Source: Uranotaenia lowii
Taxonomy: Eukaryota > Arthropoda > Insecta > Diptera > Culicidae
DNA length: 64,000 bases
NCBI RefSeq assembly: GCF_029784155.1
Contig: NC_073692.1
Span: forward strand, 326,635,920 to 326,699,919
Direction of reading: 5' to 3'
Both the position numbers and the translations under genes were made by a program. The notes beneath the pieces are model-generated. The model was not told where the DNA came from and did no database searches. It worked only from the letters and a program-made list of their open reading frames with translations. Below, one piece after another: positions 5,973 to 10,129 of this stretch. The stretch's first letter is position 1. Every line of letters begins with the position of its first letter.

Positions 5973-6191
5973 TGTGGTGATACGAGACTACAAGATATAG
6001 AGAAACCATAGCTGTGAGAACAACCTGAACATGACGACATCTCAAGTAGAGAGAGTCATGGTTCAATCTGGACAAGCAATCATAATAACACGCGGAATAG
6101 TTATGCGCGTTTGTGAAATGTAATTATGAGGAACTCAAGTGATTCCTCAGTGTGCAAAGTGCTACTTGTGGACGAATCGGAGGGTACCACA
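5973..6191 (+). repeat. left LTR, 219 bp
   Basis: Direct repeat with TG...CA ends, identical by eye to 9911-10129. It is the 5' LTR by the position of the primer-binding site and should contain the promoter. No TATA box was assigned. Confidence 0.92.
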
Positions 6192-6193
6192 AA

Positions 6194-6211
6194 TTGGCGA
6201 CGAGGATGGGA
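6194..6211 (+). promoter_or_regulatory. putative tRNA primer-binding site
   Basis: TGGCGACGAGGATGGGAT starts 2 nt after the 5' LTR and begins with the expected TGG, the complement of a tRNA CCA end. The first 13 nt after the LTR (AATTGGCGACGAG) are identical to the same position in the RT-less element at 35343-37112. The tRNA species was not identified. A splice-donor-like CAGGTAAGA follows shortly downstream. Confidence 0.7.
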
Positions 6212-6501
6212 TCCAGGTAAGACTAATAAAATCAAATTGATTCGTGTGCGGATATTTTCCGGATTGTGTTATCCGAAGACGGCTGAGACCAAGATGGTCC
6301 ATCTTGTTGTGCGGTTGTTTTCCTAGAATGACGACGCGCTGATTATTTTAATGTGAAATGGTATTTCGAAATAGTTGAGAAAACTTAACAAGTGGTTTCT
6401 ATGTTTGGCACGCTATGTGGTTTCGTGCAGGAAGGTCTGGTTTCTGCGTACCCTGTGGATTAAATCTGATGATCGTGAGTGTTATGTTCATGCGGAACAG
6501 T

Positions 6502-6845
6502 GGCCAGTACCGTGGGTACTGTGCAGGGCATCAGGTTCATGTTGTCTATCGATGTGTTTATCGCACATAAATTGGCCGGTACCGTGGGTACCGTGCAGGG
6601 TGGCAGGAATTATCCTGTGAGAGATCTGGGCCCGACGTTAGTCCGGCAGATCTGTTGGCCAGTACCGTGGGTATTGTGCAGGGTGACAGGAATTATCCTG
6701 TGAGAGGTCTGGGCCCGACGTGAGTCCGGCAGATCTATTGGCCAGTACCGTGGGTACTGTGCAGGGTGACAGGAATGATCCTGTAAGGTCTGGGCCCGAT
6801 TATAGTCCGGCAGACCATTTGGCCGGTATCTTATACCGAGCAGGG
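6502..6845 (+). repeat. about 83-bp tandem array inside the LTR element
   Basis: GGCCRGTACCGTGGGTA recurs at 6502, 6574, 6657 and 6740, with a degenerate start at 6821, so spacing is 72 to 83 bp. Units share GACAGGAATTATCCTGTGAG (itself partly palindromic) and TCTGGGCCCGACGT. It lies in the leader, where it might affect packaging or termination. That role is inference. Confidence 0.85.
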
Positions 6846-8094
6846 CGATAGACAACTGAAATCGTGGAAACATTCTAACACGTGGTGGTGTTATGAATTT
6901 TCGCCAATACGTTGGGTACGGGTACGCAGAAAAGGCAGACGAGAAAAAAAAAACTAGGACGGTGCGTGATAGATGGTAAATCTCAGAGTTTCAGATTGGA
7001 AAACGCATTGAATTGCAAACGATTCTGTTGCGTCTGATATTCGTTGATCATTAAAAATGTCAACTTTCTTTTGATGAGCTCAAGAAAAAATTGTAACACA
7101 GATCGAATTTAAAATTGAACGTTCGTAAAAGAAATTTTGGAGAGATTTTCAGAAATGTACTGAAAACACTTTAGATGGCGAACTCTATCTCATAATGAGC
7201 TTGCTTATTGTAGCGAGTTTGGTTACAGAAGTCAGTTTTTGGAGTAACCTGGATTGTGGAAATTAAGGACGAGGCTTTATAGTTAGCCCTATGCAAAATC
7301 TTATTTGAACACCCAATTTCACTTTGCAAACCTTCGATCGTATGGATATTGGACGTTGATGTCATGAAAATAAAATATATTTCATTTACCAACCATTAGT
7401 TCAGCGTTCCAAGGGAGATTTGGAAGTTATTTGTTAACATAACCAGCGGATGTTAGATAATGCATAAGTTGTCCTGAAAACCGGATTAAGAAATGTAAGT
7501 CTGAGTGAAAAGTTCGATCTCCGGTCTGGTGAAAGGTTCTATCTCCGGTGAGTTTAGATTTCAAATTGAAAAACATATTTGAGCTGTTTTGATCGTGTAA
7601 CAGATTGCAGGTATTCTTATTGAAGATAAAAGGAATAACATAGGAGATGAAAAAAATGCATATTCTCTAACTTAAAATTTCTCAAACAGAATATTACCGA
7701 AATTGATGATCGATAGTTCGCAGGGTTTTGAGTTCTGAGGAGCCATTGTCGTGGTGAAGCGAAATTTTTTAGGGAGTGTGAAACGCAGATTGAGAGAGTA
7801 ATATAGTGCGGCCAAGAGGCGTATGTCCTGTCCGAGGATTGTTTGTTGGTGGTGGTATTAAGGACGAGCTTAACGGGGCTTTAAAAAAAAAAAAAACTTA
7901 CACTCACATATAGAACATCTCAGTGAAACTTCATGTTCCTTTGAAGAGATCTCTTTCAAGGATATAATGGTTTAGTGTTTGCTGCCTGGCAATTGGGTTT
8001 TTTTGCGTATAAGGAGGCACCTTGGTTGGCAAGCGTAAACTTTTCATTTCACAAGGGACACTCGTTCCAGCGTCGGAAATGCTTTATTGCCTTA

Positions 8095-9090
8095 CAGATT
8101 TTCTCTGAAGACACTGTTGCATTGGAATATTACGAACGATATCCAGCTCCGGAACCACAAGATTGTCTGCTGCATGACGATTGGGTTTCGGCTGTGGATG
8201 CTAGAGAGAATTCTCACCGGGGGTTATGACAACACGTTGATTATGGGGACTATGCAGACCTTTCCGGAGATCCGAGGTTCGGAAATGACAACGGTAAGTC
8301 ACCGGACTATGAACCATCGGGGGAACCACAAGCTGCTTGACTCGCCCGTTTGCTTGCCGACCGGGTGACTGTCTAGCGTGTACGCTCGTGCCGATTCACC
8401 AACTGTCAGTTTAACCCCATACACACAGGGAACACGAAAGGAAAGCATAAACTTACAATTCCCGGTCGTAGAACCAGTCAAGAGTTACATAGATTTCGTT
8501 GGACGAAGAGAAGGGAGTTTTCGCAAGCGCTTCCCAAGATCATGATACTTTGGGAAGGAAATGTAGCCAGTAATTCGGTCAAATGCTTTTCGTTGAGCAA
8601 GGGACACGAGCGGAGTGTGGATTGTATAGCGGCAAACAAAATTAAGATCAGAATCGCCACCGGTAGCTGGAATACTATACTGATGGTTTTATCCACTGAT
8701 ATCCGCAGCATGGCGATCAGCAACCAAAACAACCATCGACCACCAAACACCAAACGGCAGAAACTTGATCAGGGTAGTGTTCGGACACCAATTTTGACTC
8801 TGGCCTTTGGCCATCGGGAATGCGTTTCCGGGGTGCAGTGGATGGATAAAGACACCATAAAAAAATCGTTTCTGGTACTCAACGCGGTCAAATCAGAAAC
8901 TGCTGGACTCAAGTCGTTTTTCGATTTGAGCTATTCTCCTCTGAATGGGTTAATCATACGACCCTAAATCTAATCAGGTTACCATCATCAAAAGCACCAT
9001 CAATGTGCCCAATTGGTGTGCTGGAGCACTAGCAACGGGTATTCGTGTCGTGTCGGGAGCGTACGATAGTCGCGAAAATGAGGATGAATA
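8095..9090 (+). pseudogene. WDR12/Ytm1-like WD40 pseudogene captured in an LTR element
   Basis: WDR12 (yeast Ytm1) is a WD40 subunit of the PeBoW complex in large ribosomal subunit maturation. Recognisable blocks, in the expected order on the plus strand but in different frames, are PAPEPQDCLLHDDWVSAVDA (about 8143-8205), ILTGGYDNTL (about 8212-8245), the GHERSVDCIA and ATGSWNTIL blocks (8606-8690), RTPILTLAFGHRECVSGVQW (about 8779-8840), KSFFDLSYSPLNGLI (about 8911-8955), then YDP and VSGAYD (to about 9075). Frames shift several times, the stretch 8260-8540 is hard to align, and a WD blade is missing between VQWMDKDTI and the KSFFDL block. It is therefore a non-functional copy. No intron-like interruption was obvious, which fits a cDNA origin. 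The functional parent gene is not in this window. Confidence 0.82.
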
Positions 9091-9897
9091 ACTCGAGAGA
9101 GTTACCACCCTGAAAAAAAGATAGTTGCGTAAAATTGTGGGATTACCGCAGTAAGTGGGAGGGGTAGTAAGCGTTGCCTTGTAGCTTTTCTTTCAAGTTG
9201 CTTTCTTGACACGGAATAAAATAGGATTGCTTTCACTGATCTAAACGGAGGCTAGCGCGCTGATCCCAACATAGTACCTAGAAGGTTTTATGAAACATTC
9301 TCAACGTATAATATCCATCATACTGGAATGGACGGGGTGCTGGTGATAGTGTCAATTTTTGCGGGCCAACGAGATATGATCTGCATTACGAGACGAGGAG
9401 GAAAAAATGAAAGACTGAGCAGTTTTTTTTGAAAACTAAAAGAAGATGAGGAACGTTGTTTCTGTTCTTCTTACGTAGTTACATTGTAGTTAATTCGGCT
9501 AATGATGACACCGATCTTTCATACAACTTGTGGAAATTGGTTAAAGAGCATTCCATAACAAAAAAACAAAAAAAAGAACGGTATCGGTGAGACTGAGCGA
9601 ATGTTCGTTGATAGTTGGGATGTTTGACTCATGTATGGTTCTCATATAGGCGTCGCTTGCTTGAGCGTATTTGACGGTATTGCTAGGTTGGTACACTCGT
9701 CAGGGGAGTCGCAACAATCGCGATCGGCATCCATAAACTAGATAGTTCCTCTCATGGCCATGAAGCGGTTGTCCATCATGCGTATGGCATTTTGGGAGAT
9801 TCTTCGATTTAAGGACGCATAGAGGTTTTGCTGTGCTTCATGATGGTTGTGTTCGAATGTTTTGACTATAGCGAGAGATACTTATATTTCATTCTTC

Positions 9898-9910
9898 AAA
9901 GAAAGGGAGA
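9898..9910 (+). promoter_or_regulatory. polypurine tract
   Basis: A 13-nt all-purine run lies immediately 5' of the right LTR, the position expected for priming plus-strand DNA synthesis in an LTR retrotransposon. Confidence 0.75.
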
Positions 9911-10129
9911 TGTGGTGATACGAGACTACAAGATATAGAGAAACCATAGCTGTGAGAACAACCTGAACATGACGACATCTCAAGTAGAGAGAGTCATGGT
10001 TCAATCTGGACAAGCAATCATAATAACACGCGGAATAGTTATGCGCGTTTGTGAAATGTAATTATGAGGAACTCAAGTGATTCCTCAGTGTGCAAAGTGC
10101 TACTTGTGGACGAATCGGAGGGTACCACA
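9911..10129 (+). repeat. right LTR, 219 bp
   Basis: Matches the left LTR base for base by eye. It is followed directly by the CTACC target duplication. Identical LTRs imply a recent insertion. Confidence 0.92.

Follow-up and report, generated by a model that had tools for sequence, protein, structure and literature searches.

An LTR element without detected gag or pol

Within the 64-kb stretch of Uranotaenia lowii DNA that was analysed (the window), positions 5973..10129 hold an element (copy 1) in which two LTRs enclose an interior of 3719 bp. Its ends and internal signals are the following:

5968..5972, no strand: 5′ target-site duplication CTACC, read in the sequence
5973..6191, + strand: 5′ LTR, 219 bp, TGTGG...CCACA, 219/219 the same as the 3′ LTR
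6195..6212, + strand: primer-binding site TGGCGACGAGGATGGGAT, 18 nt, immediately inside the 5′ LTR
6501..6828, + strand: tandem array of an 83-bp unit, ~3-4 copies, belonging to the shell that sister elements also have
9898..9910, + strand: polypurine tract AAAGAAAGGGAGA, adjoining the 3′ LTR
9911..10129, + strand: 3′ LTR, 219 bp, 219/219 the same as the 5′ LTR
10130..10134, no strand: 3′ target-site duplication CTACC, read in the sequence

The initial annotation had described LTRs without visible difference, a CTACC duplication, a primer-binding site and a purine tract, and all four were located. The LTR of the shell begins with TGTGGTGA. The primer-binding site is a putative complement of a tRNA-Ser 3′ end; the same 18 nt occur in 4/4 elements examined of the clan to which copy 1 belongs, and the purine tract is similar in 4/4. 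The absence of gag and pol claimed by the same annotation also held, as five gag/pol-like ORFs taken from the window's other elements detected neither in copy 1 when used as tblastn queries (best E = 0.46). As a control, 4/5 queries recovered their own element, and the element of the fifth was absent from the target set. A genome search with the 219-bp LTR gave 15 matches (14/14 candidates scored), and the window holds one copy of the element only. These features are those of LARD-like elements: direct LTRs with TG...CA ends and a target duplication of 4-6 bp, a primer site beside the 5′ LTR and a purine tract beside the 3′ LTR, a length of a few kb without detected gag/pol, and copies at more than one unrelated site.

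No autonomous helper was found, and five LTR-only stretches (L071-L075) showed no second, distant LTR around gag/pol. Among the other elements of the window, the one at 42.7-50.0 kb was rejected as a member of the same family, its LTR alignment scoring 112.5 against 117.5 for the best of 100 shuffles. The LTR of the 35.3-37.1 kb element aligned with a score of 105, the best shuffle reaching 96, and may be distantly related to that of copy 1; this element and copy 1 both have a TGTGGT start and AATTGGCGACGAG after the LTR. In 31 virus stretches, no predicted tRNA overlapped the matches to the primer-site pattern; the LTR pattern was not found in bacterial genomes, nor were the array and LTR-edge patterns found in virus contigs.

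A decayed, spliced WDR12 segment

Translated similarity to WDR12 chains was found at 8377-8967 of the window (+ strand, E = 3.2e-17) and at 7945-8229 (+ strand, E = 1.7e-8), and the joined read of the element's WDR12 matched Culex WDR12 with E = 5.5e-87. The earlier description of the interior as a sense-oriented, decayed WDR12-like sequence was correct in identity and strand (E down to 5.5e-87) and too broad in extent: the similarity spans only about 8096-9152, sense to the LTRs, and is interrupted by a nested repeat at 8255-8427. That description also made no mention of the 83-bp tandem array at 6501-6828. The segment is built as follows:

8096..8240, + strand: first WDR12 block, from residue I85, 132/150 aligned columns identical to parent exon 2
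8255..8427, no strand: dispersed repeat lying inside the WDR12 copy, not in the gene, common to copies 1-3
8429..8957, + strand: second WDR12 block, several frame-breaking indels, 456/569 aligned columns identical to parent exon 2
8956..9074, + strand: third WDR12 block, spanning the exon junction, from the alignment to the parent gene
8972..8978, + strand: exact exon 2-exon 3 junction AATC/AGG (8975/8976), 61-nt intron missing
9065..9133, no strand: ~55-bp insertion ending in an A-run, also in copy 3
9120..9152, + strand: last WDR12 block, to residue S383; later residues, to near the stop codon, only in copy 3

The parent WDR12 gene lies at C2:30059519-30060928 and has one intron inside the captured span (30060587-30060647, 61 nt, GTGAGT...TTTCAG). 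Alignment to this gene, proposed in the initial annotation as a check for intron loss, showed the intron to be precisely gone, leaving a fused AATCAGG in the element. Since the exon–exon junction is exact, a spliced mRNA was captured; the argument rests on one junction, because the captured span contains one intron only. The segment thus resembles LTR-mediated retrocopies in being spliced (one intron testable) and in lying within LTRs.

Two candidate introns were rejected. The stretch at 8255-8427 is missing from the gene and recurs at 7 other genomic loci at 71-83%, which rules it out as a WDR12 intron. Intron retention at the edges of the segment (TTACAG before 8096 and CAGTAAGT at 9148) was rejected because the gene has no intron there, copy 3 continues past the 3′ edge and the 5′ edge varies among copies. 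Template switching would be expected to leave microhomology at the switch points; at the 5′ capture edge AGATTT is shared, but the ~20-nt difference there between copies 1 and 3 blurs any such reading. On either side of the ~55-bp insertion stands an imperfect 14-nt direct duplication (9065-9078 and 9120-9133), and two other loci match 45-52 nt of the insertion (85-91%). We also observed that the genomic ORFs of some relatives stop at the WDR12 codon near 9148.

Copies of the element and origin of the segment

Three genomic loci, a low copy number, combine the element with the WDR12 segment, so that the search for further copies suggested earlier was answered by a second near-full-length copy and a broken third. 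Copy 2 lies on a different chromosome (C3:58.52 Mb) with its own target duplication, CATTT, and its LTRs are identical (0/219 differences). Copies 1 and 2 share ~99.5% identity, with 13 aligned sites differing over ~4.1 kb, and the difference between their target duplications argues against segmental duplication. Copy 3 (C3:180.75-180.78 Mb) is older and broken and includes the WDR12 segment; no 5′ LTR was detected in it, so target duplications were read for copies 1 and 2 alone. Its WDR12 runs to the last codons, near the stop, where neither 3′ UTR similarity nor poly(A) was seen; the absence of both a poly(A) and a complete 3′ UTR is a further likeness to LTR-mediated retrocopies.

Copies 1 and 3 have in common seven frame-breaking indels (5, 5, 4, 7, 32, 13 and 1 nt) and, likewise, two larger insertions. 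Over 635 three-way aligned sites, the gene differs from copy 1 at 69 and from copy 3 at 73, 56 of these differences being common to both copies, and the two copies differ from each other at 29. With 69/635 sites differing from the gene and 0/219 between the LTRs, decay of the WDR12 sequence came before amplification. The initial annotation had proposed that the capture is old and that the chimera has kept moving as a family. Sequence comparison supports this: young and old copies have the same decay, and neither copy 1 nor copy 2 shows any difference between its two LTRs.

How the segment came to lie between the LTRs can be explained in several ways. Many retrocopies made by LINEs are spliced and 5′-truncated, and the WDR12 copy is both, starting at residue 85. 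A LINE-type processed pseudogene that landed in a pre-existing LTR element, with no capture by the LTR machinery, would account for this; it is nevertheless unlikely, as the copy in which WDR12 runs furthest (copy 3) ends in the last codons without the expected 3′ UTR and poly(A), and no duplication flanking the whole segment was noticed by eye. Capture from genomic DNA, by unspliced read-through or recombination, is very improbable. The homology of the young copies does stop at CGCAGT, followed by AAGT, and the ending of some relatives' genomic ORFs at that codon looks intron-like, but the U. lowii parent gene has no intron there, copy 3 extends past the CGCAGT edge, and the true intron in the span is precisely missing, so that the fused junction contradicts this origin. 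A local accident, in which two LTRs happen to lie on either side of an old, immobile WDR12 pseudogene, would fit the single copy within the 64-kb window; it is hardly credible given copy 2, with identical LTRs and another target duplication on another chromosome, and the existence of the older copy 3.

A different question is whether the segment has been kept for small RNAs that regulate WDR12, in the way that the moth Pxyfem acts on PxyMasc, a precedent described in part of PMC9674220. Because 87/1038 21-mers match the parent mRNA exactly, along with a run of 45 nt, small RNAs against WDR12 are only physically possible; the copy is sense to the LTRs and full of frame-breaking indels and insertions, and retention for this purpose seems improbable. 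Most likely the WDR12 piece has no function of its own and would be cargo between the signals that matter, namely the LTR, primer site, 5′ array and purine tract.

Our preferred reading, to which we give a probability of roughly 0.85, is that a non-autonomous LTR retrotransposon inserted recently at 5973-10129 and holds a decayed, spliced WDR12 mRNA copy, likely acquired by template switching and likely copied in trans. The WDR12 mRNA would have been acquired during reverse transcription in a virus-like particle, with a switch back inside the mRNA, which fits copy 3 and its lack of a 3′ UTR. Later copying may have been carried out by an autonomous, gypsy-like LTR helper with the same primer site, and the element would still be able to move.

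Sister elements and known systems

Three further elements (L076, L077 and L078) have the same primer site, array and purine tract with different cores; two sister lineages in the clan use the shell. The L077 core matches a host exon at C1:194371001-194371600 in sense orientation over 153 nt (70.6%, E = 2.7e-15) and a further 47 nt (85%), and the L078 core matches overlapping blocks of it; the match of this lineage is short and gapped. This exon belongs to an open gene around C1:194370739-194371554 that has a single copy (1 match, 4/4 candidates scored; a 333-aa frame without a stop), presumably a conserved, TMEM245-like membrane-protein gene. For L076, no host gene was recognised in the 2632/2901 nt of the core searched against the genome with all candidates scored; the searches returned the family's own copies and five matches of 55-93 nt (77-84%) in its first half, perhaps a dispersed repeat. 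A Pfam search of 8/10 listed sense ORFs (at least 70 aa) of the sister elements gave one HAUS6_N match below the cut-off (E = 0.048), taken as chance.

The match to a second host gene in a sister lineage suggests that the shell can acquire host mRNAs repeatedly, and on these alignments the group looks like a modular clan of LTR elements carrying host mRNAs. Tentatively, and at slightly less than an even chance, the clan may be an LTR counterpart of Pack-MULEs, with a conserved non-coding shell, repeated mRNA uptake, core swaps and cargo amplified as families (2/3 examined lineages with a host gene).

The initial annotation's statement that such capture is rarely documented in insects needs tempering, as a review covers LTR-made retrocopies in mosquito and Drosophila and a moth paper covers Plutella. 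LTR-mediated retrocopying is already known, mosquitoes included: such retrocopies are reported from Drosophila, mosquito, zebrafish and chicken (Tan et al. 2016, as described in passages of PMC5408686) and treated in general terms in part of PMC8232201. In the PMC5408686 passages, as here, template switching is presumed to have fused host mRNA to an LTR element; those are retrocopy events, whereas the U. lowii chimera went on being copied as a family when its cargo was already decayed. Maize Bs1, as outlined in sections of PMC13317346 and PMC4717578, is likewise an LTR element with exon-only host gene segments, but is a plant element in which segments of three genes yield a chimeric gene; the U. 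lowii element is from an insect, its WDR12 is frame-broken and the same shell holds, in a sister lineage, a match to another gene. The cqUNK families of Culex quinquefasciatus have short LTRs, clear primer sites, purine tracts and target duplications, no coding sequence, tandem repeats and no known master, and the passages on them in PMC3286476 make no mention of host-gene cargo. Our element has tandem repeats between the LTRs, no coding sequence, and the primer site, purine tract and target duplication of that group, a likeness by description. The W-linked Pxyfem retrocopies of Plutella also join a host mRNA piece to LTR-element sequence in an insect, but, in the portion of PMC9674220 that describes them, form tandem clusters expressing silencing RNAs rather than a family that is dispersed and has an LTR pair of its own. 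Our literature search found no insect shell with exchanged host cargo and continuing amplification.

The locus provides an animal case in which an LTR element takes up a host mRNA and goes on spreading as a family once this cargo has decayed, and the parent gene, the fused junction and three copies, two of them young and one old, are all present in a single genome. The sister lineage with a match to another host gene makes it testable whether gene capture by mosquito LTR elements consists of one-off accidents or is a habit of a particular non-autonomous shell. Shells of this kind scatter partial gene copies, from which piRNA or siRNA control over essential genes could arise.

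Structure of the element and origin of its cargo

The window contains a non-autonomous LTR retrotransposon whose two 219-bp LTRs show no difference and whose interior carries a decayed segment of the host gene WDR12. We conclude that this is a real, mobile, RNA-captured host gene within a non-autonomous LTR family.

Features of the window
5973-10129: LTR element carrying WDR12 (copy 1), with CTACC read in the sequence on each side
6195-6212: primer-binding site
6501-6828: tandem array, 83-bp unit
8096-9152, sense: WDR12 segment (PDB sequence matches, E=3.2e-17 and 1.7e-8)
9898-9910: purine tract
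415-1356, minus strand: 314-aa open frame, Tc1/mariner transposase-like by eye
27569-29586: long inverted repeat, arms of ~600 bp at 98% identity
35343-37112, minus strand: compact LTR element with 99% identity between its 195-bp LTRs
42665-50023, minus strand: Gypsy-like element, LTRs of 213 bp, 98.6% identical
56785-57098 / 59639-59953: further inverted repeat, 95.9%

Neither gag nor pol was found in the WDR12 element when five gag/pol-like ORFs of other elements in the window were used as queries (best E=0.46). By eye, the compact element has one gag-like ORF (35651-36955), and the Gypsy-like element has gag/pol-like ORFs spread over several frames. The compact element carries AATTGGCGACGAG directly 3′ of its 5′ LTR, as does the WDR12 element. 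In the latter, the positions directly 3′ of the primer site (6213-6223) read CCAGGTAAGAC, which is splice-donor-like; the equivalent position in a sister element (L076) reads TCAGGTAAGAC. A stretch of ~65 nt (7887-7970) matches eleven other loci at 87-90% among the matches listed and is probably a dispersed repeat.

The best protein match of the cargo was mosquito WDR12 (Culex 60%, Armigeres 60%, Anopheles 51%). The host genome's own WDR12 shares 88% identity with Armigeres and Culex, and 78-79% with Anopheles and one further relative. These values point to a culicine-type mosquito. In the 1.08-Gb assembly the window occupies C2:326635920-326699919. A search of this assembly with mosquito WDR12 protein gave at least 44 matches (98 of 128 candidates scored), with a single locus at 84-87%, the parent gene at C2:30059638-30060919; the other matches, in the same scored set, were element copies or other WD40 genes at ≤33%. 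Read from the DNA, the parent gene has its start codon at 30059519, its stop at 30060926-30060928 and two introns. Intron 2 (61 nt, 30060587-30060647, GT-AG ends) separates AATC from AGGG, and positions 8972-8978 of the element read AATCAGG, i.e. the spliced exon junction. Intron 1 falls 5′ of the captured span, so intron 2 is the sole testable one, and it has been removed exactly. The element's WDR12 spans residues I85 to S383. In copy 3, an older genomic copy, it reaches the last codons and similarity then stops before the 3′ UTR; the young copies have therefore undergone a later deletion. The cargo is probably inert.

Genomic copies and order of events

Genome searches gave 15 matches with the LTR (14/14 candidates scored), at least 52 with the interior (40/153) and 18 with the WDR12 part (15/15). 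Two further loci have the same element with its cargo.

Further copies
C3:58520875-58532677, minus strand: copy 2, CATTT duplications
C3:180754689-180782041: copy 3, old and broken by large insertions, most of the WDR12 segment kept

Over ~4.1 kb, copies 1 and 2 differ at 13 substituted positions and by a few short gaps. Three insertions are nested in copy 2 and specific to it, one each in the 5′ LTR, the leader and the last WDR12 block; the LTRs of copy 2 have 0/219 differences between them and are one base off those of copy 1. The 5′ LTR of copy 3 was not detected. Five LTR-only stretches (L071-L075), 83-88% identical to the element LTR, are probable solo LTRs. GATAG flanks both L072 and L073 on each side, L071 has imperfectly matching flanks, and the left flank of L072 is also present at L074 and L075. 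At L075 (C1:152600001-152610000), a ~2.1-kb unit with one LTR of this family stands as a tandem triplet (99.95-99.98% identity); the amplification is local and very recent.

In a three-way alignment of the gene, copy 1 and copy 3 (635 columns), the gene differed from copy 1 at 69 columns and from copy 3 at 73, and the two copies differed from each other at 29. Of the columns at which a copy departed from the gene, 56 were shared by the two copies, 12 were seen in copy 1 alone and 16 in copy 3 alone, and one differed in all three sequences; some of the 56 arose in the gene itself. Both copies also have frame-breaking indels of 5, 5, 4, 7, 32, 13 and 1 nt, the repeat at 8255-8427 and a ~55-bp insertion near 9065-9119. 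The order of events is capture of spliced WDR12 mRNA, decay of the cargo within a moving lineage, insertion of copy 3 and, later, insertion of copies 1 and 2. As the LTRs of each young copy are undiverged, their last moves came long after capture.

Sister lineages and a match to a second host gene

Loci matching the array and 5′ leader include three sister elements of 4.0-4.5 kb (L076, L077 and L078). The LTR pairs of L076 and L077 are 99.6% identical, and that of L078 was seen over 110 bp. The 18-nt primer site is exact in all four elements, the arrays are ~77-87% identical to that of the WDR12 element (longer matches) and the purine tract is similar, while the core is not common to the WDR12 element and its sisters. 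L076 occupies nine loci (matches grouped by us) and L077 four, L078 among them. No host gene was recognised in the L076 core, aside from five short matches at other loci (query 301-389; 55-93 nt, 77-84%), probably a dispersed repeat. Part of the L077 core (query 1222-1424) has matches at a handful of loci, which may represent a repeat or a gene cluster; three lie within 7 kb at C2:370.69 Mb (70-93%).

The L077 core also matches C1:194371001-194371600 in two co-linear, sense blocks, one of 153 nt (70.6%, E=2.7e-15) and one of 47 nt (85%); L078 matches it more weakly, in overlapping 47-nt blocks. With the same settings, ten other genome stretches (L065 and L068-L076; 96 kb) gave nothing below E=0.57. 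On the host side lies an open frame of 333 aa, the sole genome match of its query, P0121 (4/4 candidates scored). Relatives of this stretch occur elsewhere at 72% and 34% (2/163 candidates), and it matched no Pfam family; we take the gene to be TMEM245-like. The match is confined to one exon, and the L077-type core may have been taken from this gene as mRNA.

The shell (LTR ends, primer site, array and purine tract), the spliced cargo and the independent insertions are the observed part of the mechanism. WDR12 mRNA would have been packaged together with element RNA and joined to it by template switching during reverse transcription, the element being mobilised in trans by a putative autonomous LTR element; no such helper was found. 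A review explains LTR-mediated retrocopies by such packaging and template switching, and states that they exist in mosquito and Drosophila (PMC5408686; more generally, PMC8232201). The classical LTR element known to transduce genes is Bs1 of maize (PMC13317346, PMC4717578); in insects, Pxyfem is a case that involves silencing RNAs (PMC9674220). A Culex survey describes 38 non-autonomous LTR families bearing tandem repeats; host cargo does not appear in the passages describing them (PMC3286476). Among the top-ranked literature matches, no amplifying insect LTR family carrying WDR12 or another host gene was found. The unusual part of the finding is that one shell appears to carry different host cargo in two of the three lineages looked at.
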